Assembly (NCBI RefSeq): GCF_965363235.1
Contig: NC_134842.1
Coordinates: 5,979,112 to 6,043,111 of the forward strand
Source of the DNA: Mytilus galloprovincialis
Taxonomy: Eukaryota > Mollusca > Bivalvia > Mytilida > Mytilidae
Reading direction: 5' to 3'
DNA length: 64,000 nt
The stretch's first letter is position 1, and each line of letters begins with the position of its first letter. The position numbers and the translations under genes are program-made. This document shows positions 14,953-42,903 of this stretch, piece after piece. A model generated the notes under the pieces. It searched no databases and was not told the origin of the DNA. It saw nothing but the letters and a program-made list of their open reading frames with translations.

Positions 14953-14978
14953 CAGTACTTGCAACTTTAGGCGTTACT
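14953..14978 (+). repeat. left terminal inverted repeat
   Basis: 26 bp, CAGTACTTGCAAC followed by TTTAGGCGTTACT. It is the reverse complement of 42,878-42,903 except at one base (T for C at position 14). CAGT termini next to TA are typical of Tc1/mariner elements. Confidence 0.85.
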
Positions 14979-14986
14979 ATTTTAGC

Positions 14987-15128
14987 GATCAGTCAGCGGT
15001 CATCGATCCGTCACCGATCAGTCCAGTTCGCGTCAAACTCAAGTCACCGATCAGTCAGATATTTAATGAAAATCCTTGACTGATCGGACGGATCGGACGG
15101 ATCGGACTGATTGACCTTTCTGACGGAT
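14987..15128. promoter_or_regulatory. left subterminal GATCAGTC array
   Basis: GATCAGTC occurs at 14,987, 15,016 and 15,049, with its reverse complement GACTGATC at 15,078. GACGGATCG-type variants continue to about 15,125. Subterminal arrays of this kind are usually transposase or accessory-protein binding sites. It also forms the region directly upstream of the transposase start. Confidence 0.65.
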
Positions 15129-15186
15129 TGAACTCTGCTACGTCACATGTTGAACTCTTACAAATTACGGAATCTTAATTTCGTTT

Positions 15187-18100
15187 GTGTTTGTATTCAA
15201 GATGGCGCTACGCAAAAGTTCGAATCGTCTCTCTACAGTTACACGACAACTTATTTTGAAGTATGCTCCAAAGTTTTCAGCTCTAAAAATTTCACGTTTG
15301 TTAGAAGAGAAGTACGATGTTAAAACATCGAGACAATCTGTGTGGCGATTTTTAAACAGGTTCAAAAAATCCAAGAGCATTCGTGATCCACCAAGACGGA
15401 GAGTGCGCGGTATTTCAGATTTGCACATCAAGGCTATTGATCAGTGGCTAAAGAAAGACAATGAACTAACTGCAAATGCAATCGCCGACAAACTGAGAGA
15501 GACCTTTTCAACAAAGATAAGTAAGGGCTATGTGTCACTGATCCGCAGAAAATTAGGATGGACAGCTAAAAGAGTGAAATATTGTCAGCTGATTTCACAT
15601 GTAAATAAAGAAAAGAGACTTCATTATGCCATGAAAGTGCTGTCCATGAAGGAGAAGTTTTTAAACGTAATCTTCGTGGATGAAAGTACAGTGGAGATGA
15701 CTTCAAATGGCAGAATATTTTTCTATAAGCCAGACTCTGATTTGTCTCAGCTGCCAGCAAGAAAGCAGAAGCCAAAGCACTCATACAAGGTATTTATTTA
15801 CATGCATGTACATTAAGTGGTGGCTCTAGAACTTCTCATCAAGGGGGTGCTGAATGACATTAGTGGTGGGGTCCACTGACTGACCTAAAAAGGGGCGCTC
15901 CAGTCTAGTCCAAATAATTATGACGTCTGGCAAGGCTATTTTAATTTTTTTCTGGGACGCCTTCCTAAAGCGTCCAAGAAAAAAATTAAAATAGCCGTCC
16001 CAGACGTCATAATTATTTGGACTAGCTCCAGTCATGCTTTTGTGATTCAGTGTTCTAGAATTTTTTTGGCACCTTGACTTACCACGGGTAAGATCAATAA
16101 AAAAATTACTTACCCTCATCTAAAAGTTAAATCTGCCAACCAATGCTCGCCGCCCTTAAGGCCGGGGGTCTGGGGGCCGCTCAAGGCCCCCAGAAGCTCT
16201 GGGGTAAATGATGCGAAATCCTGCATTCTAGCCATTTCCTGGCACCTTTTTCATGCTTCAGAAAGTACCCTTTTTTGTGATGTCAAATGATGTTTTGTAT
16301 GAAGCAATGATGACTAAAGTGTATTGAAAAGTATTTGAAATATATGGCTTAATTGTAACTATATACCTATACCACCAGAAAAGTACATTGAACTATAACA
16401 GTACTTCATTGACTTTCATACCAATAATCCACTGTAAAAAAAATAAGGGACTTACATGCAACTCTTTTTAAAAATCAGACATGCTCTTTATAAAATACTG
16501 AATATTGTTCAGGCTGATTCCCTGAACATTAATGATTAAGGATAAGTCATTTGTTGCACATAGATTTTAAATTTAAAAACTTTTATGACATGCTTTAAAT
16601 TATATGTTGTGAAGTTTGTCTGAACAAAGCTGGATTCGGATACGATTGAATTTTGTGCAAAATTTAAAAAAAACGATTTCTTACTAAATTTGACAAATAT
16701 GTTATAGTTATTACTATGTCAATGTATGTCATTTATTAAGAGCTATAATAAATGCAACTGTAAGTTTATTTTCCTCCGATGACAAGAAAAAAAATCGTTT
16801 ATGTCCCGATTTAAGCACCAGTTATCAATCCGGATTTTCCGATTTTACCGACACCATGACCGACTTTTAGAATGATAGGAGAAGAATGTGGTCTCTTTTG
16901 CGCTTGATTACACCTAGTATTAAACGAGTGCTTGAATAAAAGCGCCGATAGACATCGACAAAATCTTCGATCTTTTATCAAAGTTTTTTCTCGTGATATA
17001 ATAAAAATAAAAAGCAGATATGGGAAAATTGAAGAGGACCGGGAAATTTCAAGAGTTTTTCGGCTTCCCCGAACTTGAAAATTGACTTACCACCGGGTGA
17101 CAAAGGCTAAAAAATGACTTACCCGTTGTCCTAATCCACTTACCCCGGGTAACGGGTAATGGGAATCCTAGAACACTGCTGATTCCCAATATACATGTAC
17201 ATGTACATGTATAAAGCAACCTAATTTTACTTACAATAAGCCCCCTAGATCCTCCTCTGACATTGTTCTTGTATTTAAGTTTTATCAGAGTTTGCACTTC
17301 GCATTTTTTTCTCATAGCCTAGGCTAATTACATGTTGAACATATCTTCATGAAATATAATTAAGTACAAGCTAAAGAAGTACAGGTGGATGTCTCTGGTT
17401 CTAATATAACAATATAATTTTGTATTCTTTTAAGTTGGACATGACCAACAATTTTAACATTGAAATGTTCATAGTAATCAGAAATGCTAAAATAATGAAT
17501 TTAACAGACTTTGGAACAAGGGAGCGGAGTAAAACTGTTTCAAAGTACATGTAGTATGATGTACATGTACCTATATATTTTGTTATCTTGACTGAAATTT
17601 TCCAGACATGAAATATTTTACTAAAATTCTCCCTTTAACAGTATATACTTTTAACCAACATAACCAATTCAAGCTCTCAATGCCTTCTGGCTCAATTTTG
17701 AGGGTGTGTTCTAGTGTACATGTAGTCCAAATAATTATGACGTCTGGCAAGGCTATTTTTTTTTTCTGGGACGCCTTCCTTTAACGTACATGACGTAGGA
17801 CAATGTAGGACAGCGTCCCAGAAAAAAAATAAAAATAGCTTTGCCAGATGTCATAATTATTTGGACTAGTGTACATGTATAATGAAGATGACAAATAATG
17901 TTTCATATTTTTTTTAGTACTGTCATTGACTGTAAATGTATATCACCATGATCATGCATGACATGAGTGTTTAAACTATTTAAATGAACTTGACTTATGA
18001 GAATACATGTATTCATCACATTAAACAATGTTCCTGGATAAAAAAATAAATGTAACTAGTACTTTATTTGTGTCATTCTTTTACAGGTTCATGTTTGGGG

Positions 18101-19903
18101 TGGAATTTCGTACAGAGGGAGAACAGATGTGTGTATATTCACTGGAATCATGGACTCAGTAATTTATCAACAAATTCTTGCTTCTAATTTTGTGCCTTTT
18201 GTTTCTGCTGCCTTCCCTGATGGTTATCGCCTATACCAGGTAAGTTAAATTTTATATTTGTTATTGTAGATAAATTTGAGAAAGGAAATGGGGAATGTGT
18301 AAAAGCGACATCAACCCGACCGTAGACATGGTAGAGCAGACAAAAGCCAAAGGTCACCAATGGGTCTTCAATGTAGCGATAAGTTCATGAAGTTACATAC
18401 ATTGTATTTTGGTACATGTACAATGTATACAGTTGTCTGTCGTCCATCTGTCATCAACATTCTGAAAAACACTTAAAAGGGGGTCTCATTGGGGGTTCTG
18501 ATCCCATAATCCTGTGTACTGTTTTGTCTGATTCCTGTATTTGGGCAATCACTATATGCAGAAGCAATTCTCATTTTTTTTTTTTTTTTCCATTTTCACA
18601 GCACAATAATTTGACTTTCATATGTCACACTTACAATCCCAAATCATGCTTAGACCAACTAGACCAATTGCATGAAACTTTAGTGAAGTGTTTATATATC
18701 AATTAACCTGACATGAGCTCCCTTTTAATATTAATAAATTTTTAATTGTACATTTCAAAGTCATGGTGTTTTATTCATAAAAAAGGGTGATTTCCCAGTT
18801 TGAGGAAAAGTCTAAAAAATGCTTTATACAGCAGTGTTAATTAAACTTAAAGTGAATTGATTCTATAAATATATATGTTCATGTAAGCTCCCTTTTGACA
18901 ATGTTTGATTTTTTATCAATTTAAGATATAGATATTACTTTTCAGAGTTGCATGTACATTTGTACCATGGTTGTGTGATTTCATTTATCATGTTTATGAA
19001 ATATAAAAGGGGGGATTTTCCAGTTTCCAATATCTACTTTGAGTAAATTGTATACCGTTCTAACAACTTGAAAGAAATTATCATTCATGCATACATGATT
19101 TACATGTACACACATGTATCATAGACATTGTTATAAGAGTATATAATATATACTGTTAAGTGCAGTAGTTCATCATACATGTAATCATTGTTATTTTTTT
19201 TGTTCCATTCTCAATTTCATTATACATTTATAGTGCAACTTAATATTATTTAATGAAGAAAAATATATATATATATATGCATTGTCATATTCAATGATAT
19301 TAAAAAGATGTGGTATGATTGCCAATTAGACAACTATCCTCAAAAGATCAAAATGACACAAAATTAACAACTATAGGTTTCATAATTGTTATTCTAATAC
19401 CTTCATCATGTTTATCCAAACAATTACCATGATTCAACTGCCATGATTACATGCTATATGCATAATACATTTGTGCATGATGAAAGAATTGAAGTTTGTC
19501 AATATTTCAAAGCTTTCTGTAAATTGACTTGATGAACATGAATTATTGATTTGATTTAAAATCACATATTGTTATCATATAATTTTTATGTACTTTACAG
19601 GATAACGACTCTAAGCACAAATCCAAATCAACCAAAGAGTGGATGAGACAGAATGGAGTACTTGACTCTGTTATGGAAACTCCTGCATCTTCACCCGACC
19701 TCAACCCCATTGAAAATGTTTGGGCAGCAATGAAACAGCATCTCCAGAATAAGGTGAAACCAAGAAAAAAAGATGAACTTGTCCAAGGAATTGCTGATTT
19801 TTGGTTGACCTTAACACCTCAGAAATGTTCAGCATACATAGACCATCTTCACAGAGTCCTACCTTATGTAATTTTGAACCATGGAGGTCCATCTGGATTT
19901 TAA
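15187..19903 (+). CDS. Tc1/mariner-like DDE transposase, three exons, apparently intact
   Basis: Exons 15,187-15,789, 18,087-18,239 and 19,601-19,903 splice in phase 0 with GT-AG borders to 352 aa, about the usual Tc1 length. Residues ~10-120 hold two helix-turn-helix regions (LEEKYDVKTSRQSVWRFLNR; ADKLRETFSTKISKGYVSLI) with a basic DPPRRRVRG link. The catalytic first D is in IFVDEST, the second is the first codon of exon 3 (YQ|DND), and E is in SPDLNPIEN. The spacings are 87 and 36 residues, so DD36E by my count; Tc1 itself is DD34E. HVWGGIS (exon 2) is the usual Tc1 strand. The start may be Met1 or Met6. It would cut and rejoin TIR ends in the nucleus. Introns are unusual for this superfamily and are filled with MITEs. 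AATAAA lies at 20,054. Confidence 0.85.
15906..16024. mobile_element. foldback MITE with 9-bp TSD, copy 1
   Basis: Palindrome TAGTCCAAATAATTATGACG ... reverse complement, 119 bp. It is flanked by direct 9-mers GCTCCAGTC (15,897-15,905 and 16,025-16,033). A 9-bp duplication suggests a Mutator-like (MULE) source. It lies in transposase intron 1. Confidence 0.8.
16048..17178. mobile_element. hAT-like non-autonomous element
   Basis: Starts CAGTGTTCTAGAA and ends CCTAGAACACTG. 'gacttacc..cgggt' subterminal motifs occur near both ends (16,075 and 17,090-17,155). The CAGTG...CACTG termini fit hAT elements, but I cannot see a clean 8-bp duplication. No transposase is present. It lies in transposase intron 1. 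Confidence 0.6.
17723..17868. mobile_element. foldback MITE with 9-bp TSD, copy 2
   Basis: Same family as 15,906-16,024, with TAGTCCAAATAATTATGACG arms. The TSD is GTGTACATG at 17,714-17,722 and 17,869-17,877. The loop is longer (cgtacatgacgtagg...). It lies in transposase intron 1. Confidence 0.8.
18285..18385 (-). repeat. dispersed repeat fragment ('acacattccccatttcc' family)
   Basis: Reverse complement of 53,793-53,925, sharing 'cgctacattgaagacccattggtg' and 'acacattccccatttcctttctcaa' broken by small changes. A weaker copy lies at 48,205-48,290. It sits in transposase intron 2. Confidence 0.6.
19300..19395 (+). repeat. mussel 'gattgccaat' dispersed repeat, partial
   Basis: 'aaaagatgtggtatgattgccaattagacaac...aacaactatagg' matches the 5' part of the copy at 47,676. 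It lies in transposase intron 2. Confidence 0.6.
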
Positions 19904-23078: not shown

Positions 23079-24680
23079 TTATTTCTTTCGGAACATGTTG
23101 CGTATCCCGTTGTTGATAGAGGACCCAATCTGTTTTAGCATGTGTGGTCCTTTGATGTCAAAAACACAGTGCTCGATGGCATGCTTCCTTCTTGGTGATA
23201 GACTTTGTTTCCCTTTCTGACCGGTGTAGTTCCTTCCAAACATTTCTGCAGGAGTAAACAACTCTTTTGCCAAGTTAAAGATGAATTGAGAATCAGTTAG
23301 GCTATTGCTTGAAACTTTACAGACTGTATCAGGATGAATTCGGAGTTCAAGGAAGTCAATTTCAATATCTGTGTTACATTTTACTTGATGAATTGGTCCA
23401 GGATAGCAGTTGTAAACGTTTGCTGGTTTGAAATGATGTAAAGCTACAGATGACTGGATTGTATCCCTTGTAGAAGAGGAATTTGATGACAGTGGTAATG
23501 TTGGTTGCAATAATGTCTGACGTACATGATGTATGGCTGATGAAACCTGATTGGCTGGAGTGGTGTTAGCTTCTGTAAATGGAGCAATGTCTGGTAATGG
23601 AGCAATGGTACTATTCAAAGGAAGTGTTATATCTGGAGATGAATGTAGAACTGGGGATAGTGTTACTGGTGTAGGGTTAAATCCTGGAGAGCTATCAATA
23701 TCTAATGATGTGAAATCCATTGACTCTGATGGTGTAGAAACAATGTCTGATGCTGAGGTTATGATGTCATGCTCGTCAATTGGAGGCAGAGTGCGGATTC
23801 TAGGTCTTGTTATTGATGTTGGCATGTTTTGGGCCGCTGTTGTGCCGTGCTGAAGTGCATTGGAAATTTGACTAGAAATTAATGAATTTGGTCCTGGTGT
23901 TGCTGATACTTTCTTGGGGAATATGTGAATATCTGCAACTGTGGTGATAGGTACTGAAATGTCTGTTGTGCTGACCTGTTGTTCTGTTTGTTGTGACAAG
24001 TTGTCTGTGTTACAAGTTGTTGATGTAGTAGGCAATTGTTGATCTGCATGGCCAGATGAAGAAGCTACTGATGATGGTATCTGCTGTGTTGTAGTCATCA
24101 TTTGCTCGAGTGAAGGGCCAGTGATAGAACTTGCTGATGGCATACTTGCTGCTTGACATAACATAGTAGTAAATAATGCAGTTGCATCAAAGCTGTCTGT
24201 TGGTGTTGATTTAGATGATGGAGGTGAACCGGTCACATATTCCATTAGGTCTAAGTCTTGTAAATCAGATGATGGGAATGGTGATAAGTCCTGTAACTCT
24301 TTGGAAAAGGATTGCTGTGATGATGGGATGTGTCTACGGATGTCTTTTACTACCCTGAGAATTTCGATGATCTGGCTTCTAATATCTGGAATTTCAGGGG
24401 GATCTGTCTGTGTTGACACTGATGTGGTCTTTGGAGTTGGCTTGTAATCTGCCAGTATATTCTGTAAATCTTTCTCGTCTGATAGTATGATTACAGAATC
24501 AGTCTCAGTTTGTTTGTCAACAACACCTTTCTCATAATTGTTGACTTGATTGGTCACAATATCTGCTTGGTCTAGGGTAAGGCCTCCCTTAAAACATGGC
24601 TCTCTCTGTGGAACGGCTCGTGTCTGACTATAGTCTCCAGCACCTTGGTATAACACTTTAACTAAACGACTTTTGCTACC
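23079..24680 (-). CDS. BEN gene exon 6 (533 codons plus stop)
   Basis: Acceptor is TTTGTTTTGGCAG just above 24,680. It carries the low-complexity Ser/Thr region and the C-terminal BEN domain, ending FRKK then TAA. The frame is open throughout. An overlapping plus-strand frame at 23,551-23,853 is a shadow. Confidence 0.85.
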   Translation of the reverse strand, partial: GSKSRLVKVLYQGAGDYSQTRAVPQREPCFKGGLTLDQADIVTNQVNNYEKGVVDKQTETDSVIILSDEKDLQNILADYKPTPKTTSVSTQTDPPEIPDIRSQIIEILRVVKDIRRHIPSSQQSFSKELQDLSPFPSSDLQDLDLMEYVTGSPPSSKSTPTDSFDATALFTTMLCQAASMPSASSITGPSLEQMMTTTQQIPSSVASSSGHADQQLPTTSTTCNTDNLSQQTEQQVSTTDISVPITTVADIHIFPKKVSATPGPNSLISSQISNALQHGTTAAQNMPTSITRPRIRTLPPIDEHDIITSASDIVSTPSESMDFTSLDIDSSPGFNPTPVTLSPVLHSSPDITLPLNSTIAPLPDIAPFTEANTTPANQVSSAIHHVRQTLLQPTLPLSSNSSSTRDTIQSSVALHHFKPANVYNCYPGPIHQVKCNTDIEIDFLELRIHPDTVCKVSSNSLTDSQFIFNLAKELFTPAEMFGRNYTGQKGKQSLSPRRKHAIEHCVFDIKGPHMLKQIGSSINNGIRNMFRKK

Positions 24681-27600
24681 CTGCCAAAACAAAAAAACAA
24701 CTATAAAATAAATATTTCTATAAGGAATTAATTGACAATTCAGCCGAACTAATACATCTAAAATTATCGTCTAGTTTATCAATTCTGCTATTTTCATTTT
24801 TTCTGTCCAAATTAATATATTTTTGGAAAACAAATAAGGAATGAGTTCATGAACCACAGAAATTACCGATCATGCTATTAAAAATCATGTCAAGTTATTA
24901 AAGAACATAATTGAAGAAATGGTCAAACTGACACTACCTTAATTTGTACTGATCTGAGTCTTGTGGTATTCAGTATTGTGTTAGTTACATTTTATTTGGT
25001 TGATGCAAACTCAAGATTGAGAACGTGAATTCAGCATTTTTCAATTTGTAAAGGGGCATAATTCTAGAACAGTAAGTGATGCCCCCGAAATTCAATCTTG
25101 ATCTGTTTTTCGTGGTTTTAAACCTTGCATATAAGTTTCATAACATTTGGCAAACCTATGACATTGGGAACAAAACAAAAATTTAGCAATTTTTCTATTT
25201 GCAAACAGACATAACTTCATTACTTTTGTAGTAATAATTATTATGAATAAGGTTCATAACATTTAATTGCAGCCAACTAAAGTGAGTGAACAGAAACAAA
25301 AAATCAGCATTTTTTCATTTGTAAAGGGGTATAATTCTAGAACTATTCAAGTGATGGGAAGTGTTCAACCTCTATTGAGTTTTGTGATAAACAAAATGCA
25401 TAAGTATCATAACATTTGGATGTAAAGAAATAATCAAGTATGGGTTTTGCTCATTGCTGAAGTCAAAACATGGCCCATAGTATTTAATTTCTGTGTCTTT
25501 TGGTCTGTTGTATAGAGTTGTCTCATTTGCAATCATTCCACATCTTCTTAGTTATATTTATAAGGCTTATGTCACTCAGTCTAGATTAATAAAAGCAACT
25601 GAAAGGAAACTTAATAAACAGCTGTGTGGGGCTATTGCATGATTCATTTGTATTTTGCATAAAAAGTTTTGGTACAACATGTCCATTTCAACAAATACAA
25701 AAGCAATTGTTCTCTGTGTAATTTATTCACTGGGATCTTTATTTTTCTTCTAAATATATATCACTCATTCATTAACGTATGTGTCGTTCCCAAATCTAAA
25801 TTCAAACTTTTACTAGTAAACTATAAAAAAGTTTCAAATTCAACAAGAGGGGGTGGAGCTATATAATCTCCATAAAAATGATACTTGAAAATGCAAATAA
25901 ATTTGCATACCAAATTTCATTGACTTAACATTAGCAGTTCCGAACATCTTAAAATGATCTTATCACAAACTAATACATGAAAACTAAGATAAGTTACAAA
26001 TTCATTAGACTGTGACTGAGGGGCGAGGCCAAATATTCTCCATGGAAATGAGATGTGCCAATGCTTATACAACTGAATACAAATTAACATTGACCTAACA
26101 CTAATGGTTCCCCTTGAATTGACTTAATCACAAACTAATACATGATAACTTGTTAAAATTTTCAAAGTCAATAGACCATGACAAAGGGGATTGGATGGAA
26201 CTTCATAATAAGAATTGAAAAAAAATCAGCCGGTAGAGAACCAGTCTAGGATTGACAGAGGGAAGTAATTTGTTAAAAAAGATTGTAATAACAGAATCAA
26301 ACCGATAATTGGCAAATGAACTATTGGCAGAGGATCTTTTACTCAGTAAATTAATCAATGAGTGATATCTTTCTCTATGTAAGATATTTGATGATCCCAG
26401 TGAATAAACTACACAGAGAAATTAAAGCTATTGTATTTTTTCAATTGGACAAATTATTGGGTTTGCAGTGAAAATTTTAACTTATAACTATGAATGTGCC
26501 TCTGGCATCCTCTGCCTATTTTTTGACATTGGATAGGTTTTGGCTGGATAAATACAAATGTAGACTGATTATTTTCAACATACCTTGAACTCAGTAGGCT
26601 GGTCTGGTAAAATTGCTATTCCCAGAGGGTCAGCCTGTTCCTCTTGAATATCATCAGCTCCAATGGAGGTGTCATGTTCTGAATTAGCAGTATCCTGAAA
26701 AACACATAGAAAACATTAATTTTATCCTATTATATGTTAGTCATAAGCTGCAAACAAGTACATCTTATTTCATTTATAAAACAGATCATAACTACACTTT
26801 TTTCCTGGCTTACATCTTATTTACCATTACATATATTAATGAATTCGGAAGCCTGATAGGAACACAGTGGTCAAACTTTCAAAAGGTTGAATTTTGGTTT
26901 ATCTAAGTTGTTGGGATATAATCAAGTACCCACAGTCACATCCACTCTAAAGCAGTATTTCTATTTGTATTTATCTGATGTGCCTGTCCAAGATAGAACC
27001 CTGTAATTCAGTGGTTATCATCATTTGTTAATGAGTAACATAATTGTTTTAGATCATTTTTTTAACATGAATAATGCCATTGGTTTTCCAGTTTGAAGTG
27101 TTTTACATTTGTCAGTTCAGGGTCTTTTATAGCTGACTATGCAGTATGGGCTTTGCTCATTATTATAGCCTGTACAGTAACCTTAAGTTGTAAAATTCTG
27201 TGTCATTTGATCTCTTGTGGAGAAATGTCTCATTGGCAATTATACCACATCTTCTTTTTTATATTGTTACAAAAACATTGAATTTAGCATTATGTAATTA
27301 CCAATAAAATTGTATGCATTAAAGCAAAAAGATTTTTCTTGTTGGGGTTAACTAAATTGATACAATTGAATATTTTTCTCTTTTTTACCATGTTTACAGA
27401 ACTTACATGTGATAAATCTATATGTTAAAATCTACATCTGCATTTATCACATATGTAAGTTCTGTAAAATAGAGTAAAACATTCAATTATATCAATTTGA
27501 TTAACCACAACAGGAAAAATCTTTTTGCCTCAGTACATGTAACAAATGCTAATTTGCTTTATGACACAATAAGCTGTCAATCAAAACAACAAAAAAATAA

Positions 27601-30600
27601 TCTCGCTTTCAGGGCAAAGTCTCAACAAATCAATCAGTTTCCAGTCCTGTTAGTATAATAGTCCCAGATTTCATATATATACAAGGGAAGTTGTCCACTT
27701 TTTAACGGTTTTCGGTTTTATTTCATTTCGCTTCTCTTTTTACAGGTACCCCTTTTTGTCCCTTTTCTATTTTTGATATTTTAATCAAAAACTTAAAAAT
27801 CAAACTTTCAAATAGTGAAATAATCAAAATTGCACGTTAGGTTTAGTATTTTAAAAGTTTGATCAAATTCCTAAACTATCAAACTTCTAAATGATATTTA
27901 GAATTTTATTATTTTAATAATTTGGTTAAAATTTCAAAATTTCAAAACTTTTACACTGTTTGAAATTTTGATATTTTAAAACTTTGATCAAAATTCAAAA
28001 AATCTAAAATTTCAAAACTTTTTTAAACTTTGAATTGAAAAGTGTTACACACACTGTATGACCTGATGACTAAAAACATGTATGCTTAAATTTAGACGTG
28101 ACAGTTTGATTATACTTGCATTTGTTAAAAATCTAAAAATTGCAACCTAAATTAAAATCTAGCGGAAACATAATGATCTTTTATATAAATATAAGTTTTA
28201 TACCTCAATATCATCAGGCTGAAATGGTTCTGCAACATGTTCATCTGTTGTCTCAGCTGTTGATTCCTGCCAATAACAATTAAACATGTCTTAAATCTTT
28301 TATCAATGGCAAGTTTACCATTTTTATGTTAACTAAAGATTTCTTGTGCTACTGTTGAAGACAATGGTTTCAACTTGACACATTAAAAAATTTTCAAAGA
28401 CACTGCAACCAATATTAGAGTTAAGAATGGTAAAATTTATACGTCACCAACAAAAATATTTGTTTGAAATTTCAAGTTACTATTTAAGTTAGATTTCTAT
28501 GACTCTTATCATGATTATTGTTGGGTTAAAATAGCAGATGGCGCTTTGTTTCTGTTCAAGGTTTTCAAAACTTTGATTTTAGTACCATTAAGGTGGTACC
28601 TAACACTACAGGGAGATAACTCTATAAAATCTGCAGAACGTTTTAATGACGTAGTCTTCATAATTGAATAGGATAAAAAAAAAAGTCTTTATGAAACTGC
28701 CATATAACCATGATAACCAGTGTAATTTTTCTGATAAACGGTTGGTTCAGATTTTTTGAATTTTTTATATTTTTGCAAAGGGTGAAAGTAAATACTTTGG
28801 CAAAATTTTAAGAAAATTAAACAAGCCAATTTAATTTTAGTTCAAGTGTTAGGTACCACCTTAAGAGCTTAATATCAATTAAAGTATTTGAAACGCACAT
28901 GTTTTTTAAAGCCCTTTGATGAGCATTTTATTAAACATACTGAAAGTTATTAATTACAACATAAGGTCATTAGAAATTTATCCCAGTAAGCATGGTAAGG
29001 AAAAATCTTACAAATGCTAAATAAAGCATGCTACAATATCCAATCAGGAACCTTTAGTTCAGTTGTTGTTGTTTATTGCTGTCCATCATATTTTTGTATA
29101 AAGTAAATCATGCCTTTAGCTTTCTTAAATATTTTATTTTCTTGTTTAATTTCATGGCCATTAACAAATCACTATGCTGTAGGGTTTTCCTCATCATTTT
29201 GCTAATTGGCAAAGGCCTATTATTATTAACATATATGTCATCTGGTCTCTAGTGGTTAGTTTTCTCACTGGCAATCATGCCTCATATTCTTATATTTTAA
29301 AAAGTACTTTTAAGTATTTATTTGGGCTTACCGTTTCTTCTGGCCAAACAGCTAAAAAACCGTACTCCTGCTGGTCTAAGTTTTGTCTCCGGGCGATTTC
29401 CCTGTCAATGGCAATAGCTCGATGAGTTTTCTCCCATTCATCTTCATACAAGTCTAACTCTTCTTCAGTTTCTGTTCAGAAAAAAATTAAAAATTATTTA
29501 ATCAAATAAATTCATTAAACAAATGTCATAAAAGTGAAGTAACAAAGACACCCATCTCAATAAATATTTAAAACCCAAGCTCAATCACACACAAGTATGG
29601 ATCACAAAACGTTGAAAATCAAGGTGAACTTTATTCAAGTATAAATTTGAAGTAATATAGGATATCCTCGGTATTTTACCTTATACATATAAGCATCATA
29701 AGTGGGGTTTCAATGAATATTTAATTGTCTTGTAATACACAGTTGTCTTTATACATAAATTTTTGATTTCATTGAAAATGAATATCTCTTAGATCTTGTA
29801 GATGAATTAATCATTGTTAATATCAATTAAAGTATTGGAAACGCACATTTTTTTTCGTACAACAATAAACATGATGAAGTGAGATGTAGTATGATTGCTA
29901 CAGAGACAACTTCCAATCGATTGGATGTAGCCAATACCACGCAATTGTAAAGCTTTCAACAATGATAAACCACGTACTATATTATGTATATATATATGTG
30001 TATAAAAAGCTTGAACATGAAATATGAAACAATTCAATTGAGAAAACAAATGGCCCACATTTAAAAAAAAAAATATTAGATAGAACAAATCTGGATTTAA
30101 AGACTTTATATTTTATAAACGTTCCTAGAAACACATGACAAATGCATGATAATTGTACATGTGCATTGCAATAAAATTAGCATGATCAGTATCAACTGTA
30201 ATTGTGTATTCAACAATAATATTTTAATATCATTTAATGAAATTAAATAATATGAAAATTATCAGTCATAGCAATAAAAACAATAGTATATACATGTATA
30301 TACTTGGCATCTCTGACAATCAATTTTGTATAATAATGCTCTATTCACCATCATCACGATAGTAAAAGAAAAGCATCTTACTCAACAAGTCTTAGCCTAA
30401 AAAGCAATTTTTAATGTACAAAAAGTTTGTTTAATAATCAAACATACCTGCTATTTCAAGAACTTCAACTTCCAATGATTTGGTACCCAATACCAAGTTT
30501 ACTTTAGTACTTTTTGTAGCTGATGACAGTTTTGCTGATCTGACCTTTGCTGTATTGCCGTCAATGTCAAATAATACAAGTGACCATTTGGCTACCTGAA

Positions 30601-33600
30601 ATTGGAAAAAAATGTAATAATATACTGATGTTTATGTTTTTTTTTTTTAACTTATTATTGTGAATAGTCTGTTGTCCATTGTTATGGAAATATAAGCACT
30701 CATGTTGATCTGTTCCAGACCATACAAGTACCGGTATTTGAACTGTATGTGTTCAGTCTGCACCGTATGCACACTTTTTCTAAATATGTAGTCTGAGAGT
30801 ATTGCATCATCATGGTAAAACATAGTCACCTGCTGGTTAAAGATTCCTAAATATATTGGAACAACATTCTAACTTGATCTTTTAATTTGTTAAAGTGTAA
30901 ACTATATATATAATTAACATCTGCACCATGAGCTAATGATACACCTGTCACATTTTGAAAGAATGAAGTTCAATATAAACTTCTCAATGTCATATATATA
31001 TATAAATATATAGAGAGCCAAGGTGGTTGTGTGGTCTAGCGAGATAACTGCAGTTCAGGCGATTTGGTGTCAGGATATCCCAGTAGCATGGGTTTCGAAT
31101 CCTGGCGAGGGAAGAAAAAAAAATTGCGAAAGCAAATTTACAGATTTAACATTGTTGGGTTGATGTTTAGACGAGTTGTATATATATATTAGAAATTTTT
31201 AGAAATCAAAAAGGAGCTTTATTATGTTTATAATTCATGTCACTCAGTCAAAAGATTAAACAATAAACAATTTAACAGTTGTGAAAATATGGCAGGTAAT
31301 TAAAGTTCGTGTATTGAAGCCGAAGTTTAACGATTGTCACCTGTTTGTCAACAATTGACGAAAAATAAACAAAAAAGCATGGAAATTGAGCACGTGTTTA
31401 ACATGTAAATTCAGATAACAGTTTATTTTAAGGACATCCATGCATGCGTATTGTGGTCACCGGATTTTTACGAGATGGGTCACACGTAGGTCACCTTGCA
31501 TACGGAAAATATGTCGGGGGAATTGCTTGCTGGAAGGAAGCTATTCAAATAAAGTAAACTTCTTCTAAATATGAATAAATTAAAGAATTTTCTTCAGAAA
31601 AAAGTATATGTACATAAGTTTTATAATGAAAACTATCCATTGAGTTATAAAAATCATATGCATTATTTTTTTTTATTTGAGGTTTCTTATGACTTTAAGT
31701 AGCGTTCTTTTTTTAAGTAATTAAACTCTAAAGTTAGTTTTTCAATTACAATTGAACTTTTTATATTAATTTTGGAGTTAAGTTGTGTTGATCTGTTATA
31801 TGCATTTGCATCTAATAAACTTGACTATCTTCTTAATATTAGTCAAGACCATACGCGTATGGTCAGACCGTATGAGTATTTTGAAAAAGTACACATACAG
31901 TCCAGACCGTACGCGTACGGTCCAAATACTCATACGGTCTGGAACAATTACATGCTTGTTATGAGCCCTATGATAAGGAAATTAAAAAAAATATCTTTAT
32001 CTTATCAGTCAGGGGTGCTACTTAAACAAGTGATTTCATTGTCCACTATTTAAGTGATTTGATAAATTCAGTTATCACCAGTATTTAAGTGTTTCCTTCG
32101 ATGTTCAAATGTTAATTTCAGTGATTTTCCATATTTTCACAAACTTTTTTTTAATTTTCCTGCATAGATCAAATACCCCATGTTCTATGAATATTAACTT
32201 CACAAGTGTGCTTGGGCAGTAAGTTAGTGTGCTAAAGCTTTTAAAACTTAAAGTACCCTTGAGAATTGTTCTGTAATCAAATATACATTAACTTGCTGAC
32301 TATCACGACTATAAGACAAAGGTCAACAATATTAGGTAACCTGATTGGTTTTCTTTAAGAGTTAAATTGATATACTTCAAGGTTATGTCCTGATCTACAA
32401 ATTATTCCAGAAAATGCATATTTTAAATAAGTTGTTAACACGGACAGGCTTATCAGTCAGGGGCATTACTTAAACAAGTAACAATTAAAATTACCTATAC
32501 AAGTAATGTTGAAAACGAGGCTAATGTGAATATAACTTATTTAAGTTATTTTTCTGAATATTATTTTTATAGGTGTCCAAAAATACAGATTTTTCTAGCT
32601 TTAAATAATTTTCAGAGTTATTTGGTTATTTTTCCTTTGATATATAAAAACTAATTCTTCAGAAACACTAATTAACTTTCCCACGCATCTTTCTTTCATA
32701 CCGATGCTTCTGGGTCAAAGATTGGTCTCTTGGGACTATTAAATTATCATTTTCCTCTAAAATCTTGAAGGTAGACTGATATAAATAGATAGATACATGT
32801 ACTTGTGAATCAATTAAGACCTGAAGTTATTTATAATTTGTAACCTAAATCAATCACATGTGTGCCTTAGATAAGTGTAATTGCTATTTTTTTCAAAAAT
32901 GTTTAAAATAACTTATTCAAGTAATATTTTTGTCATTATTTTCAAAGTAATTTTTATCTCTATACTCCTCTCAAATCTGATAAATTCTTTATTTTATGAT
33001 ATAAAATGTTGTTTAAAATCATGAAAACTACATTGAGTCTATGTTTCTATTGAAAATTAAAATAACTCTATTAAGTAATTTTATTATTTTTAATTTAAAA
33101 AATTACTTATATAAGTAATTAAAAATAATAACTTGTTTAAGTAACGCCCCTGACTGCTTATCAAGCAAACGACAATATCTAGATGGACATAGTTGTTTTT
33201 CAATGGAATTCTTGTCTTTTTACCAATGAAAAAATCAAGCTTGTGGCAAAGTTATAAACACTTATTTAAGTGATCTTCTCGAATTACTTGTTTCAGTGAC
33301 TTGAAGTCTGTCTATTTTTTAGATTTTTTGTTTAATATTTTACAGCCAAAATCACTTAAAGAAGTGATTCTAAAATCACTTGTTTGAGTTGTAAGTACCC
33401 TGATGGATTATTATAATAGGGATGGGGCAGATTTTCATAATGGAGGATAAATTAGTGTGAAAATACTGGAGCACATCATTTAAAGTTGATGTTTGTTTCC
33501 CCTCTCCCCATCCGGGTGAAGAATAAACCCTCTTGTCCAAAAAATATTTTCCTGAAAATAAGTTGTATACATTCTGATATTTTAAGCAGAAAAATTGATA

Positions 33601-36600
33601 ATCTAAATGAATACACACTAATCGAGCACAAACAACTGAAAAGTGGCATCGACACCCGTGACAGGACAAGTCGTAACAGCTATGTGGGTCTCATTGGGGT
33701 ATAAGTTTGATGAGGGATTGTCAATTTTTTATAAGCCTGACATATGAAAGTCAAATTATTGTGTCGTGAAAGGGGGAAATGAGGTCTAGCAGGACCCGGG
33801 AGAGGACAAAAAAATGAGAATTGCTTACGCACATAGTCATGATAATGTAGGCAGGATACATGAATCTGACTAAACAGTAAGTGGGACCTGGGATTGGAAC
33901 CCCCAGCTATAAGAACATGCTATGACATTGTTAAAAAATGCCTGTCCGGTCTGTGTTACAGGCCAAAGCCTATTATTGGACCACAAATTAGTTATCACGT
34001 TGTGATTGGTTAAACGCCGTCACGTGGTGACCCCCTATGAGACCGTATGGGGTTAGTAAGTTTCATATGGGGTTCGTGACGCGTTAATGGCGACGTCATC
34101 TATTGATGTTGTTGTGTTTCATTGTTTATTTTTCCACAAAACGTCGCAGAAAAAGTCCAGCGTCCGATAAATTCGTTATACGGTTAACTACTGACCCCCT
34201 ACGGATCCATATAGGGTTAATAAAATTCATAGGGGACTCGGCCTCAGGCCTCACCCCCTATGGATTTTACAAACCCTCTATGGATCGGTAGGGGGTCAGT
34301 AGCGAACCATATAACTTATAAGGGTAGGCCAAAGGGTAGACCCGAGGGAGTGGAAACATACATTCTTTTAAATGTGGCCTTATATATGAGTATCAACAAG
34401 TTGAAAGGAAAGTTTAAGTAGCGGACTCTGAATATTGACTATAGGCCATTATCGGCCCACAGATGAATTATCACGTTGTGATTGGTTCAACACCGTCATG
34501 TGGTGACCCCCAATGAGACCGTATGGGGTTAGTAAGATTCATATGGGGTTCTTGACGCGTTAATGGCGACGTCATCTATTAATGTTGTTGTGTTTTATTG
34601 TTTATTTTTCAACAAAACGCCACAGAAAAAGTCCAGCGTCAGATAAATTCGTTATAGGGTTAGCTACTGACTGCCTACGGATCCATAGAGGGTGAATAAA
34701 ATTCATAGGGGACTCGGCATCTGGCCTCACCCCCATTCGGATTTTACTAACCCTCTATGGATCCGTAGGGGGTCAGTAGCGAACCATATAACTTTAATAT
34801 TGACTATCTTGATAGACTTGTATAACTGGACTTGAAATGTAAATATAGACTTTCGTTATAAGTCGTGAAGAGCACGATTTGTTCTCCTACAAGAAATTCA
34901 CCTCCTATTCATTTCGTATAACCAAACTGCAGTTTTACCAGTTTTTGATCAATCACAACGAATTGTTATACTATGGTATTCTTATGATTTGGACCATTAA
35001 AGTATAATTTTTTTGTCAAATAAATTTACCAATCTTGACACATGGGAAAAACGGAAGTTACCAGGTCGAACTATTTCTGAACTGCAACGTTGAACTTGAA
35101 TACAGAAATGACTTATTTCCGTACTTTGACAATTGAATGAAAAAATCAGAACACAAACTGTATATACCCAAAGAACAGTGGCGGATTCTGATATTCTTAT
35201 ACTGGCCTGCTTATTGGGCCTATTTTAGTCGTTGTAAAGGGTAGATATACAGTATGAAATTACTTGTAAAAATGTTAGATTAAAACCAAACAAACAAAAA
35301 CAAACAAACAAATATTTTATTTGCCAATCACGGCGCCCAGAATGAGCAGAATAATTATAATATAATTTTCAAACATAATGTAAAGTAAATTCAAAATAGG
35401 TTAAACAAAGTACATAATATGATTGATTTTGATTTAGTTGATTGATATAATATTAAAGAAAATGAAGTAGACAATTTGTAAATAATAAACATATATAATA
35501 CAATATGACCAATAGTCTGTTATTCTGGTCCCTTTATTGGACAGCACACCTCGTAGTATATACTAATAATTTATCAAATGTAAAAGAAATAACTTATGTA
35601 ATTGCATATTTGATCATACATAATTTTATATAGAGAAATCTAATTTAATATTGTATTTCTGTTTATATTTAAAACCTCTAATAACTGACAAATTATTATC
35701 AAAATGTTTTTATCTTCATTTCCCATTAGCCAAATAAAAAGAGATTTGTTATCAAGTTTTGAAATATTTTTATTTTTACTATATATTTTGCTTAGAAAGG
35801 GATTTCTAACATTATCCAGAGTTTTACATGTTAAAAGAAAATGCATCTCATCTTCTATTTCCTCATTACAGAGTTTGCATATTCTATTTTCTAGTTTAAT
35901 ATTAAAATAACGACCTTTTTCTATTTCAAGTTTGTGAGCTCCAATTCTAAATCTTGTTAAAACACATCTTTGAATATATGGTAATTTCAATAAGTAAGGC
36001 TCAAAATTAAAATTTGGTTTAAATAATCGATAAGTTCTAAGTTTATTTCCAGAGGTCTTATTTTGTCTTTTATCATTAAATAATTCTTTCTTTCATATGC
36101 TGAAAACCTCTTCATGTGTGTAATTTAATAATTTATATATAAACGTATATATACATATAATCACAAGGCAAAAGATAGCACTATATATTTCAACCACCAA
36201 AATAAAACGTAGTCCTATTAAAGGATTATAAATCTCGAGTTATAAATATAAACCCGGGATTGTTATAGAAACAGACTAAACGAGAAACGGGTTCTTCAAG
36301 TTGATAAAACCAAGGATTTGTATATAGTTAGATCTAACTATACAAATCCTTGATAAAACAATCTTTTTAAAAGAGCTAATGACAAGGAACTCTTATATAG
36401 TTATGTTTGCATATATACATATACATGATATAGTCTATTCAATATTTTTCAAAAAAAAATATTAAGTAGTTTTTTTATCGATTTTTTTACCATAAGATGT
36501 AAAAATATTTAACATTTTATTAATTATTTGGCTTTGATATTATTCATAAATACATGTATATAGGAAGATGTGGTGTGAGTGCCAATTAGACAACTCTCCA

Positions 36601-38114
36601 TCGTGCACGTTTTAATTTTCTGACGAAGTTTACAGAAAGTAAAATAATTCTTGAAAAGCTTACATGTATTCTAGCCAAATTAAAATCGAAAACATTTGCA
36701 TTTGTGTTTAACCTTTCCAAGGATTTGTATAGTAAGATATACAAATCCTTGACCGTTCAAATAAGGAAAACGAAACTCACGAAATTCAAAATCATGGCAA
36801 AATAAACAATAAATATTCAGACTTTCTACATCTTATGGTACATTGTATATATTTTATAATAATCGCTCATAAAATTACTTGGTAATATTCTTTTTTAAAT
36901 ATCTATTTTGGTTGAAATGATAGGACATTTTTTCAGTGGGAACTCACTTTTGTTCTATGGCTGTAACTGTACATGTATGTGTGTATTTGCGGATCCAGGG
37001 GAGGGGGTTCCGGGGTTTGGAACCCCGTTATTTTTGGCCGATCAATGCATTTGAATGGGGACATTTAGTTGGATCCCCCTTTTCAATCAATTGGCATTTT
37101 TTATATTTTTTTTATTTTTATTTCACGCAAAGGACACCATGAAGCCATTTAAATACAAAGCCATCTTGACATCTTATCATTTTTGGTTTTCAGGGGATTT
37201 TATTTTTTAAATGTGCATGTTTAAAAAAAAGCTTTCATTTTTAATAGTTCAAGAAATGAATTTTGATAGCAATATTTTAATGCTTCTTTTTTAAGAAATT
37301 GTAATCGCATAACTGAATTGCTACTTTTTTTTTGCCGTCCTACATTCACATTTTATACATCACATGTATATAAATAGTAAAATAGACCCACGTGAAATTG
37401 ATTTATTAACGTAATTGGACTAATTTCAATAATTATTTGAAATTGATTTTCGAGTAAGTGGCTATTTAAATAATTGATATTTTTACAATAATTAACACGG
37501 ATGAAGAATGATTATCTATCACAAGAAAACTTTCAACAAATTTTAAATCTATTTTAGAATCATTATAAGTAAAAAAGAAGTTTAAAATGAAAAAAAAAAT
37601 GGGAATTTGGGTGAAACACTTTTCAACCTATAATGAGGGGGAAGACAGGGGTAAGGGAGACAGGGAGAGAGGGTAGGAGAAAGGAGAAAGGTGGTGGGAG
37701 AAAGGAGAAAGGGGGTAGGAGAAAGGAGAGGAAGGCTGGGAGAAAGGAGAAAAAGTTGGAGAAAGGAGAAAAAATAAAATATCTCTCCTTTTAAATTTTT
37801 TTCTAATATTTCAAGAAAAAATATCTCAAAAGGAGATGTTTCATTCTAATGGGAGAAAGGAGAACGGGGGTAGGAGAAAGGAGAAGAGGGGTGGGAGAAG
37901 GGAGAAGGGTACCCCCTGTCCTCCCCCTCTATAATGTATAATAATGTAGCAGTTCAGTTTAAAATCATTATGAGATATAATTTTTAAAACTATAAAACCT
38001 AAACATTGTTCAATCTTTTCCCTAATTAACTGACCAGGGTATAAAATGTTTTTTTTTTTAACAGAAATCGTATGCAAAATGTATACTGACCTTTTCTCTG
38101 CGCACTGTCTTCAT
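23079..38114 (-). CDS. BEN-domain protein, six exons, apparently intact
   Basis: Exons (minus strand) at 38,091-38,114, 30,448-30,595, 29,332-29,471, 28,204-28,266, 26,584-26,694 and 23,079-24,680 splice with GT-AG borders to 695 aa. It starts MKTVRREKVAKWSLVLFD, an N-terminal module like that of other BEN proteins. An acidic segment follows (ETEEELDLYEDEWEKTH), then a long Ser/Thr/Pro/Gln-rich region (about residues 170-560). The last ~100 residues form a BEN domain: LFTPAEMFGRNYTGQKGKQ, SLSPRRKHAIEHCVF and SINNGIRNM match its LFT..E....N.tGk.gk....p.k...I...vf pattern. BEN domains bind DNA and partner proteins in chromatin. The gene is convergent with the transposase inside the same TIR pair. 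It may be captured host cargo, an accessory protein binding the ends, or simply a host gene. Confidence 0.82.
24980..26250. repeat. diverged repeat-rich stretch in BEN intron 5
   Basis: Near-repeats ('cattttt(c/t)aatttgtaaaggggcataattctagaac' at 25,035 and 25,310; 'aatctccatggaaatga'-type blocks at 25,865 and 26,035), plus a minus-strand 'gattgccaat' family tail near 25,440-25,556. No coding. Confidence 0.45.
27080..27265 (-). repeat. mussel 'gattgccaat' dispersed repeat
   Basis: Carries 'ttttatagctgactatgcagtatgggctttgctcatt' and ends 'gtctcattggcaattataccacatcttc', colinear with 47,676-47,880 in reverse. The short frame over it is not a gene. It lies in BEN intron 4. Confidence 0.65.
27324..27528. 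mobile_element. foldback element, ~205 bp
   Basis: GCAAAAAGATTTTTC at the left is mirrored by GAAAAATCTTTTTGC at the right. The arms pair nearly to the centre ('cagaacttacatgtgataaat' / 'atttatcacatatgtaagttctg'). No obvious target duplication. It lies in BEN intron 4. Confidence 0.7.
28592..28860. mobile_element. TTAA-flanked MITE
   Basis: Termini GGTGGTACCTAACACT and AGTGTTAGGTACCACC are exact inverted copies, flanked by TTAA at 28,588-28,591 and 28,861-28,864, as for piggyBac-type insertion. A decayed relative lies at 10,773-11,049. It lies in BEN intron 3. Confidence 0.75.
29860..29975 (+). repeat. diverged 'gattgcya' repeat fragment
   Basis: 'gatgtagtatgattgctacagagacaac...caccacg..ttcaacaatgataaacca' follows the layout of the 47,676 family but is strongly changed. 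The minus-strand frame over it is chance. It lies in BEN intron 2. Confidence 0.4.
31013..31190 (+). mobile_element. tRNA-derived SINE
   Basis: The tRNA-like head has a box-A-like 'gtggtctagcgag' and box B GTTTCGAATCC (31,092-31,102). The body 'gcgaaagcaaatttacagat..aacattgttg' and tail 'gacgagttgtatatatata' recur at 56,775-56,891. RNA polymerase III type. It lies in BEN intron 1. Confidence 0.7.
31847..31945. repeat. palindrome cluster around GACCATACGCGTATGGTC
   Basis: The perfect 18-bp palindrome GACCATACGCGTATGGTC is followed by GGACCGTACGCGTACGGTCC-like text. Both sit within longer inverted arms (AGACCGTATGAGTATTT / AAATACTCATACGGTCT). Probably a small foldback element. Confidence 0.6.
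32006..33405. mobile_element. outer MITE of a nested pair
   Basis: Left end CAGTCAGGGGTGCTACTTAAAC; right end 'aaatcacttgtttgagttgtaagtaccctgatg' is its diverged reverse complement. The inner element interrupts it. CTTAT precedes the left end; the right duplicate is not clear. Confidence 0.6.
32454..33156. mobile_element. inner MITE, same family, TSD CTTAT
   Basis: Begins CAGTCAGGGGCATTACTTAA and ends in TTAAGTAACGCCCCTGACTG. Direct CTTAT copies lie at 32,449-32,453 and 33,157-33,161. Multiple 'aagtaatt'/'acttatttaag' motifs fill the subterminal parts. No coding. Confidence 0.72.
33960..34320 (+). repeat. ~350-bp repeat, copy 1 of a direct pair
   Basis: Near-identical to 34,440-34,795: 'ttatcacgttgtgattggtt', 'gagaccgtatggggttagtaag', 'gacgcgttaatggcgacgtcatctatt', 'ctctatggatc'. 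The pair is separated by about 120 bp. The short frame at 34,103 is not a gene. Confidence 0.7.
34440..34795 (+). repeat. ~350-bp repeat, copy 2 of a direct pair
   Basis: Second copy; both end in 'ggtcagtagcgaaccatataact'. Internal CCTATGGATCCGTAGGGGG-like inverted pieces suggest a mobile source. Confidence 0.7.
35290..36110 (-). pseudogene. 5'-truncated LINE, C-terminal region
   Basis: The minus strand reads 'KLRTYRLFKPNFNFEPYLLK', 'RFRIGAHKLEIEKGRY', then a Cys/His cluster (ICKLCNEEIEDEMHFLLTC), the zinc-finger-like tail after the RT in many molluscan LINEs. The main open part is 35,640-35,990, with a frame break upstream near 36,070. The 3' end is A/T rich, reaching 'aaacaaacaaacaaatattttatttgcc' near 35,290. 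Related to 49,720-50,331. Confidence 0.65.
36308..36354. repeat. short palindrome, AAGGATTTGTATA type, copy 1
   Basis: 'caaggatttgtatatagtta' meets 'taactatacaaatccttg' across an AGATC centre, forming a ~42-bp hairpin. A second copy lies at 36,717-36,752. Confidence 0.65.
36717..36753. repeat. short palindrome, AAGGATTTGTATA type, copy 2
   Basis: 'ccaaggatttgtatagtaag' followed by 'atatacaaatccttg', the same arms with a shorter centre. Confidence 0.6.
37625..37910 (+). repeat. purine-rich GGGAGAAAGGAGAAA minisatellite
   Basis: About 13 diverged ~15-bp units of GGGAGAAAGGAGAAA type in two blocks, interrupted by a pyrimidine-containing stretch (37,775-37,845). Strong purine/pyrimidine strand asymmetry. 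It lies in BEN intron 1, 180 bp from exon 1. Confidence 0.75.
38091..38114 (-). CDS. BEN gene exon 1 (start codon)
   Basis: ATG at 38,114 in the context ATCACCATGA, eight codons, then the donor AAG|GTCAGT. The phase fits exon 2, which begins VAKWSLVLFD. It is the least certain exon because it is short, but both frame and splice site agree. The intron to exon 2 is 7.5 kb and full of nested repeats. Confidence 0.6.
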
Positions 38115-40925: not shown

Positions 40926-40928
40926 TAA

Positions 40929-41211
40929 GGGAGCTACCATTTGATTTTTATGGGGGGGCTAGGATGAAAAATTTTGTCCTGCATTTTTTTTTAGTTGTAA
41001 TCTCTGTCCTGCCTTTTTATTTTTCACTCTATTCGGTCCTGCCTATTTTTTTATAAGTTTATCCTGACTTTTTTTACCTAAATTGTCATCCTGCCTTTTT
41101 TTTTTTGCAAAGTGTCTCATCCTGCCTTTTTTTTTTACTCAAAACTCCTGTCCTGCCTATTTTTTTCAAATTTCATCCTAGCCCCCCCATAAAAATCAAA
41201 TGGTAGCTCCC
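40929..41211. mobile_element. Harbinger-like MITE, TSD TAA
   Basis: GGGAGCTACCATTTGATTTT at the left mirrors AAAATCAAATGGTAGCTCCC at the right, with TAA on both sides (40,926-40,928 and 41,212-41,214). A 3-bp TAA/TTA duplication fits PIF/Harbinger. The centre is a run of 'tcctgcc-T(n)' units. Confidence 0.72.
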
Positions 41212-42728
41212 TAAGTGGATGCAATGCAAGTTATTATAGGATACCATGCCACCTTCTACAATAAAATAATAAATTGTATGGGGGGGTTTAAAGGTCCCCC
41301 TGACCCCCACAAGAAAAATATAAAACAATTTAATTCAGAATTTAACTTATTTATAACAAATCAATTTATATGAAAGTCCCATTTCTGTTTAATTCCTACA
41401 CATCTAAGATCATCACGATCCAATTCTCTTGAGCCCGTTATTCTCTACTCTTTATTTTTTTATAAGGAGAAATAACATATATCTTTTCCTATTCTTTTAA
41501 TATTGACAATTATTCTGCACATGCCCATTATTCTCTATTTTTCAAATCTTTTCAATGCCACCAAAAACTTGCATTTGGTGCTGTACATTATATGTAATTG
41601 CAACTCAATTATAATATACATGTTTCTAGGTCTTGAAATTAATGCATGTGTGTTTCATGCAGAAAACATAGGAAGTAAAATGAAATAAATATTACTTCCA
41701 TGATAAAACATGTAATAAACTTTGCAATCCTTGTACACGAATGAAGCTGAAATTTCTGTGCGAATTTTAACTACATTGTTTTAAACCATGCTTTTATGTT
41801 ATGCATTGTAACAATATTATAGTTACTGGCAAGAAATACAAAATGAAAGACTGGCAAGAAATACAAAATGAAAGCCACGGTACTATACGGTAAAAAGAAA
41901 GGTACAACGACAAAGGTTAGAAAGAAATATCAATGCAAACTGTTCATCTGTTTAGGCAGCGGTTTGAAGTTTATTTGCCGGTATATTACTGTTGTGTAAA
42001 TCGGAGTCAAGCTGTCCAATTGAACGTTATATTTAATAAGAAGGAAAAAGATGCAAACATAATAATAAATATTATAATGATACACTTTGTATAATTGACT
42101 GCGTCGTTTGACGACTTCCTTTTAGAGATCGACTAAGGTGTCTTCATCGAGGTCCGCGTTTGTCACATGCTACTATTCCAAAGTTCGTTTTACATACAAA
42201 TTTTAAATATACAGGTATCCGTCCGATCCGTGCATAAAATTAAAGAACGGATAGCCTGGGATCCGGCCCAATCTATCTGCGCGTCGTAAGGGCCAGGTGG
42301 GGAACAAATACCATGTGATCGATTCAGTGCCAGTTGACTCTGAATCTAAAGTGAGGCTGAATAAATATTTGCATAAATTTTGATGTTTGATGTAAACCAG
42401 CACAATTGGAATCCAATTGACACCTTGGACATGTGAAATCTTAACCTTTTAATTTTCTCACCAGGCGATTGCTGATAAGAATTAACCCTTTTCTGCTTAC
42501 TAATTATCATCATACTACTAATTAGATATGATAACACTATACATCAATTCATAAAGAAAAATAATTAGTCTAATTTTTACTAATTGATGTTAAACAAGAA
42601 TTGATTGGATACAGATGTAAAACAAACATTGAGGACAAAATTAGTATTAACCAATCATTGACAGGCAGTACATTGATACACGCCTGGCTATACTGACAAG
42701 ATTAGCCAGGACCCCAGGCTAAAGAACG

Positions 42729-42862
42729 GACTGATCGATGACCGTTGTCACGGTAACTCTCACATAGCTTATTTGACGTATCTGACGGATCCTATGGGTC
42801 ACCGATCACCGATCAGTCATCGATCAGTCAAACATCCGTCACCGATCATTCACCGATCAGTC
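42729..42862. promoter_or_regulatory. right subterminal GATCAGTC array
   Basis: GACTGATC at 42,729 and GATCAGTC at 42,811, 42,822 and 42,855, with related 'caccgatca' units between. A 'cagttcacgtcaaac' segment before the right TIR also occurs next to the array at the left end ('cagttcgcgtcaaac', 15,024). This shared text ties the two ends together. Confidence 0.65.
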
Positions 42863-42877
42863 CAGTTCACGTCAAAC

Positions 42878-42903
42878 AGTAACGCCTAAGGTTGCAAGTA
42901 CTG
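42878..42903 (-). repeat. right terminal inverted repeat
   Basis: 26 bp, AGTAACGCCTAAG followed by GTTGCAAGTACTG, then TA. It is the inverse of 14,953-14,978 with one difference. Confidence 0.85.

Follow-up and report, generated by a model that had tools for sequence, protein, structure and literature searches.

A stretch of 64,000 nucleotides from the mussel Mytilus galloprovincialis (NCBI RefSeq assembly GCF_965363235.1, contig NC_134842.1, positions 5,979,112 to 6,043,111; hereafter the window) contains an element that, judging from its sequence, is almost certainly a Tc1/mariner-type (DD36E) cut-and-paste transposon of giant size. It carries two convergent spliced genes, one encoding a transposase and the other a BEN-type protein, and very likely the latter is a conserved functional component of the transposon, whatever its exact task. 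A more specific reading, drawn by analogy, is that the BEN protein has an accessory role in transposition, to which we assign a probability of about 0.5. Tc1/mariner elements are textbook minimal transposons, typically though not by strict definition with one intronless gene in 1–3 kb, and the mussel element is about ten times larger than usual for its type. Its features are as follows:

14951..14952, TA target-site copy, left, adjoining the left end
14953..14978 (+), left terminal inverted repeat, 26 bp
14985..15115, left subterminal repeats of the CCGATCAGTC type, in both orientations
15202..15789 (+), transposase exon 1, with ATG, helix-turn-helix part and first candidate catalytic D
18087..18239 (+), transposase exon 2
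19601..19903 (+), transposase exon 3, with D248 and E285 (DD36E), ending with the stop
23079..24680 (-), last exon of the BEN gene, with the probable C-terminal BEN domain
26584..26694 (-), BEN gene exon
28204..28266 (-), BEN gene exon, mapped to the window from the NCBI model
29332..29471 (-), BEN gene exon
30448..30595 (-), BEN gene exon, ALVLFD-like N-terminal part
38091..38114 (-), first coding exon of the BEN gene (NCBI model), MKTVRREK
42703..42865, right subterminal repeats of the CCGATCAGTC type
42878..42903 (-), right terminal inverted repeat, 26 bp
42904..42905, TA target-site copy, right, adjoining the right end

The inverted 26-bp ends described in the initial annotation, with one mismatch and each next to TA, were reproduced in their coordinates, their identity (25/26) and the span between their outer edges (27,951 bp); the repeat reads CAGTACTTGCAAC(T/C)TTAGGCGTTACT. 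At up to three mismatches the end sequence matched twice in the window and not once in 100 shuffles. An ACACCAT array lies outside the element on both flanks, and when the two flanks were joined over a single TA the rhythm of the array, judged by eye, was uninterrupted. Short repeats are concentrated inside the ends: all eight window copies of GATCAGTC are terminal, four in the left 250 bp and four in the right 250 bp, and 11 of the 12 window copies of CCGATCAGTC (at most one mismatch) fall within the terminal 250-bp ends. Repeats placed in this way would be the kind of site suited to an accessory DNA-binding protein.

The description of the transposase as intact, spliced and Tc1-like also held. 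Its three exons, separated by GT-AG introns, encode 347 amino acids free of internal stops, and DDE_3 matched the protein at 8e-18, above the Pfam cut-off; the matches to the helix-turn-helix families HTH_32 (1.9e-7) and HTH_Tnp_Tc3_2 (2.6e-4) were both below the whole-protein cut-offs. By position, the candidate catalytic residues are D160, D248 and E285, giving DD36E; we take their catalytic role from Tc1. Intron 1 contains two palindromic CTAGTCCAAATAATTATGACGTCTGG... repeats (window 15905-16025 and 17723-17869), which are probably nested insertions resembling miniature inverted-repeat transposable elements.

In genome-wide searches with each of the two ends, the best 40 candidates were scored out of 258 and 423, respectively, which makes the copy counts lower bounds. 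Paired copies elsewhere in the genome, which the initial annotation had proposed to look for, were found three times (29.2, 17.2 and 36.2 kb). There are thus at least four giant end pairs in the same orientation, C5 (the window copy, 27,951 bp), C12 (29,156 bp), C8 (17,184 bp) and C13 (36,198 bp), the latter three on chromosomes other than that of the window; we refer to them as family A. Their ends are 96–100% like those of the window, both ends of C12, C8 and C13 equal the 26-bp consensus, and the aligned pieces of these three copies start or stop no more than 3 bp from the ends. Inside the four giants, no third copy of the end was found.

Between its two ends the C12 copy is collinear with the window copy, in pieces that are 80–99% identical (the long ones mostly 88–97%) and separated by gaps or insertions; both of its genes are open with their splice sites kept, and it sits at an unrelated TA site. 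Together with the four giant pairs, this bears out the earlier proposal that the two genes are moved jointly with the ends. In the C8 copy the transposase is open, and the part corresponding to window 23861 to 32331 is missing, so that BEN exons and part of the last BEN exon are lost. C8 and C12 are 99.2, 99.5 and 99.7% identical in three blocks, with 33 mismatches in 17,232 columns, and C8 is without about 10.7 kb; on this alignment C8 is an internally deleted sister of C12, and the near-identity of the two points to recent movement of family A. C13 was rejected as a carrier of the BEN gene, with zero BEN exons in the copy. Among the open reading frames of this 36-kb copy (L030-L033) are some that we take, by motif, to be THAP-like and Kolobok-like; they probably belong to another transposon nested in the copy. 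At C11:34234375, a fifth place, only the right part is present, and no left end was found in the ~19.6 kb preceding it. DNA like the last BEN exon was found at only five places in the genome, three inside elements and two as short decayed pieces on C11; therefore no separate close host gene was seen. An intronless Tc1-like transposase frame (C12:61839399-61840217, +) stops about 320 bp to the left of the C12 giant, and an equal-scoring match to this frame at C8:69021630 is a possible empty site of the C12 copy.

The same ends also bound seven short elements of 954–5,290 bp. They retain roughly 235 bp from the left terminus and 173 bp from the right one, and six of the seven also a segment of some 110 bp close to the right end. 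In six of the seven the interior consists of repeats with a period of about 430 bp, as estimated by eye on pairwise alignments. The elements L034-L039, 2.9–5.3 kb long and filled with these ~430-bp tandem repeats, form a satellite-carrying transposon family. Cut-and-paste transposition commonly gives rise both to internally deleted copies, like C8, and to short elements.

Selection on the two genes was assessed between copies from the rates of non-synonymous (dN) and synonymous (dS) change. The transposases of C5 and C12 differ by 17 synonymous and 6 non-synonymous changes (dN 0.0074, dS 0.079, dN/dS 0.093, Fisher p 9e-8); for C5 and C8 dN/dS was 0.073, and C12 and C8 differ by only one synonymous and one non-synonymous change. 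For the BEN gene, compared between C5 and C12 over 666 codons in four of the six exons (exons 38114-38091 and 28266-28204 left out), 26.5 synonymous and 27.5 non-synonymous changes were counted (dN 0.018, dS 0.060, dN/dS 0.30, p 4.5e-5). By these ratios, both genes are under purifying selection between copies.

The second gene was predicted as an intact spliced BEN-domain gene. It is indeed spliced and open, with six coding exons on the minus strand running from 38114 to 23079, convergent with the transposase; its domain, in turn, is divergent, and Pfam is silent on the protein. Four exons were found from sequence, and exons 38114-38091 and 28266-28204 come from the NCBI model LOC143076797 (P0001), which corresponds to this gene and is listed as an "uncharacterized protein" of 695 amino acids. 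P0001 gave no match to the BEN domain family PF10523 in Pfam, and a search of the PDB with this single protein returned zero matches. The relatives come closer to the PF10523 cut-off of 23.2 bits, although both remain below it: a protein of a related family (family B, see below) scored 13.3 bits, and the M. edulis relative P0125, which UniProt names BEN domain-containing protein, 20.9 bits (E 4.3e-4). The C-terminus of the window protein is 39–40% identical to those of families B and C, and a profile of the three families found five PDB sequences at E <= 10, all of them BEND3, although the best match (0.021) was weak. The predicted structure of the BEN region was modest, with a mean predicted local distance difference test score (pLDDT) of 61.6 and 76 of 155 residues at 70–90; a fold search with this model gave 0 of 52 matches at E <= 0.001, its top six (best 0.072) being Bsg25A, which we take to be a BEN protein, BANP and BEND6, and NACC1 and BEND3 appear further in the list. 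Relatives, profile match and fold match, each weak by itself, together indicate that the C-terminal domain of P0001 is probably a divergent BEN domain. Inside the first BEN intron lies a retroelement fragment with a weak zf-RVT match (window 35643-36092, -), probably a later insertion, as this stretch is unaligned in the C12 copy.

Genome searches with the two proteins gave 117 matches for the transposase (best 117 of 410 candidates scored) and 24 for the BEN protein (53 of 53 candidates scored). The transposase relatives in the genome share the two interruption sites, which follow residues 196 and 247. At four further places, BEN-like genes are convergent with spliced transposases; these fall into two families, B (C12:26.97, C9:49.79 and C11:75.6 Mb; BEN identity 37% over residues 507-695) and C (C12:6.83 Mb; BEN identity 33%). 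The presence of BEN-like genes beside the spliced transposases of two other families indicates that the partnership is old. The family B transposase has an additional upstream exon, likewise present in the NCBI protein P0047 from C9, and the family B copies on C12 and C11 are about 98% identical in their main blocks, with internal gaps, and match to both edges of the sequence read. Other BEN-like matches (C11:27.51, 35.36, 33.94, 26.44 and 27.16 Mb; C5:99.75 Mb) had no transposase within 30 kb among the matches listed; the transposase nearest to C11:35357336 is that at C11:35325309, about 32 kb away. Chromosome C11 gathers such stray BEN-like pieces, with 8 of the 24 BEN matches lying there outside the family B locus.

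In M. edulis, the BEN protein P0126 and the transposase P0006 are located on contigs of equal size (1,382,697), and so are P0125 and P0021 (130,416), which suggests linkage of BEN gene and transposase in this species too. A tree built from 35 selected transposases separates 17 sequences, including those of mussel, Pinctada and Magallana, from the rest with a support of 100/100, their inner branching unresolved. A spacing of 36 between the second D and the E was measured in 12 of these 17 close relatives and one of 34 in 7 of the 8 others, the spacing being unmeasurable in 5 and 1 sequences, respectively.

Element size could be followed further in family C. Its left end at C12:6839161 starts TA|CAGTCCCTGTAACG, and its subterminal repeats differ in sequence from those of family A. 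The 29-mer of this end, at up to three mismatches, matched 131 times in the genome, while the backward control matched 0 times. Pairing was based on 98 of 100 rows taken from the 131 matches (66 of the left type and 32 of the right type, after two of neither pattern had been dropped); right-type ends beyond C11:11.6 Mb lay outside the rows used. Among the 32 listed right ends, 25 face a left end at most 60 kb off, with a gap of 3.8–32.7 kb (median 13.1 kb), compared with about 0.06 pairs expected from a rough uniform estimate, and seven are without a partner. Since 24 of the 25 listed pairs span at least 9.8 kb, large size seems to be a trait of the clade. None of the 25 listed pairs encloses, by eye, a match from the transposase or BEN searches, and therefore they are probably non-autonomous.

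We propose that the transposase would bind the terminal repeats, excise a unit of 17–36 kb and insert it at TA, and that the BEN protein would bind the subterminal repeats beside the ends, as modelled on Harbinger3_DR. Its help could lie in end pairing, in nuclear delivery or in condensing the long element. A wider version of this proposal, which we put forward tentatively and hold somewhat less probable than the accessory role itself, is that an old clade of two-component giant Tc1/mariner elements exists in mussels, perhaps in bivalves at large, in which the BEN protein has evolved along with the subterminal repeats of each family and, by binding the ends as a partner, lifts the length limit, so that units of 10–35 kb are moved routinely.

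Several observations weigh against these proposals. Three introns compared between C5 and C12 are 95.4–96.8% identical with gaps set aside, close to the coding sequences of the transposase (97.8%) and the BEN gene (97.3%); with so small a contrast between exons and introns, the case for selection rests on the dN/dS of few copies. A strong contrast (exons 97–99%, intron-bearing blocks about 91%) was rejected, as it shrank when gaps were set aside and was thus largely due to gaps. C13 retains the right part, transposase exon 1 with a frame break and the larger part of exon 2, but neither transposase exon 3 nor any BEN exon was found; the target site of this copy reads TA/TT, against TA/TA in 10 of the 11 copies read. 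The family B loci were read short of the element ends, the family C end at C12:6839161 had no right partner among the matches listed, and no BEN relative was found outside Mytilus among 7,994 candidates scored, although the transposase clade reaches Pinctada and Magallana.

The most serious alternative, possible but in our view behind the accessory role, is that the BEN gene is cargo or serves self-regulation, for instance as a transposase repressor or host-chromatin factor, being selected on the element and dispensable for transposition. BEN proteins are transcriptional regulators, end binding by this one is inferred, and its dN/dS of 0.30 indicates weaker constraint than the 0.093 of the transposase. 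C8, which has lost most of the BEN gene, sits at its own TA site; however, it may have been mobilised in trans, or its BEN part may have been deleted once it was inserted. Against this alternative, the BEN gene is kept in the same orientation in at least two other families, and the ends bear family-specific repeats, which an end-binding partner would lead one to expect.

It is improbable that the giant is moved by a transposase from elsewhere, with its own genes as passengers. Movement in trans must account for the numerous short elements and for those family C units that lack a match to either gene, but the transposase is open in C5, C12 and C8, and its dN/dS is 0.07–0.09 for C5 against each of the others. 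Segmental duplication instead of transposition is very improbable as the origin of the giant copies: the family B copies do match up to both edges read, while in family A the similarity stops at the TA-flanked ends, and for this family duplication was rejected because the breakpoints coincide with the element ends. Hardest of all to credit is a chance arrangement of separate small Tc1 elements, or of one end and a stray end, flanking a host gene. Short elements sharing these ends are indeed frequent, but the same pair with the same content recurs elsewhere, and the C12 copy already contradicts this reading; a composite of two small elements was likewise rejected, as inner ends are absent from all four giants.

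By transposase domain, ends and TA, the mussel element can be placed in Tc1/mariner. With DD34E/Tc1 it shares the DDE transposase, the helix-turn-helix similarity, ends starting with CAGT, TA copies and short non-autonomous relatives; it differs in its size (17–36 kb against 1–3 kb), the spliced transposase, the second conserved gene and the arrays of subterminal repeats. DD36E/Incomer elements, in the available part of their description, measure about 1.2 kb and have a single open reading frame, a protein of about 346 amino acids and TA target sites (PMC6875036). The mussel element, at 28 kb with two genes, the transposase spliced, resembles them in the 36 residues between the second D and E, in protein size and in TA; the tree of 35 transposases contained zero Incomer sequences. 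The strings 'mollus' and 'bivalv' do not occur in the portion of the Incomer paper at hand (PMC6875036).

PIF/Harbinger elements use a target site different from TA. According to the accessible sections of the literature, they too have two genes, pairing a transposase with a DNA-binding protein, but their transposase belongs to another superfamily and their partner is of the Myb/MADF type, not BEN; in Harbinger3_DR the partner is Myb-like, recognises a subterminal motif of 9 bp by binding and is required for nuclear delivery of both proteins (PMC9710019). Giant DNA transposons are known, among them Teratorn, Mavericks and Starships, and the KDZ, EnSpm and Sola-1 giants of Ectocarpus (PMC12477816). 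Like the mussel element they exceed 10 kb, several with extra genes, but as far as the consulted extracts go none of them is Tc1/mariner, and the words mariner and Tc1 occur 0 times in the main text, as available, of a review on giant transposons (PMC6431247). Keyword searches of open-licence PubMed Central papers listed no giant Tc1/mariner and no BEN-bearing transposon, judged by titles and the opening of abstracts. A lineage in nature moving 17–36 kb units together with a conserved probable DNA-binding partner would bring the long-standing question of whether a second protein overcomes the length limit within reach of experiments on just two genes and two ends, and is relevant to gene delivery with long cargo. 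On this evidence, Tc1-type elements are able to disperse long DNA, including satellite repeats, across mussel genomes.

Outside the element, a further ACACCAT-type array is located at window 53469-53609, about 10.5 kb to its right, and a long tandem array with a 63-bp unit at window 50561-51423. Two neighbouring retroelement remnants were also observed. A reverse transcriptase fragment at window 58195-59607 (+; RVT_1, 7.8e-10) is followed by overlapping frames with what we take to be a GIY-YIG-like stretch, presumably a broken Penelope-like element, and an open reading frame at window 63175-63645 (-) encodes the retroviral-type aspartyl protease of a retroelement (RVP, 2e-4).

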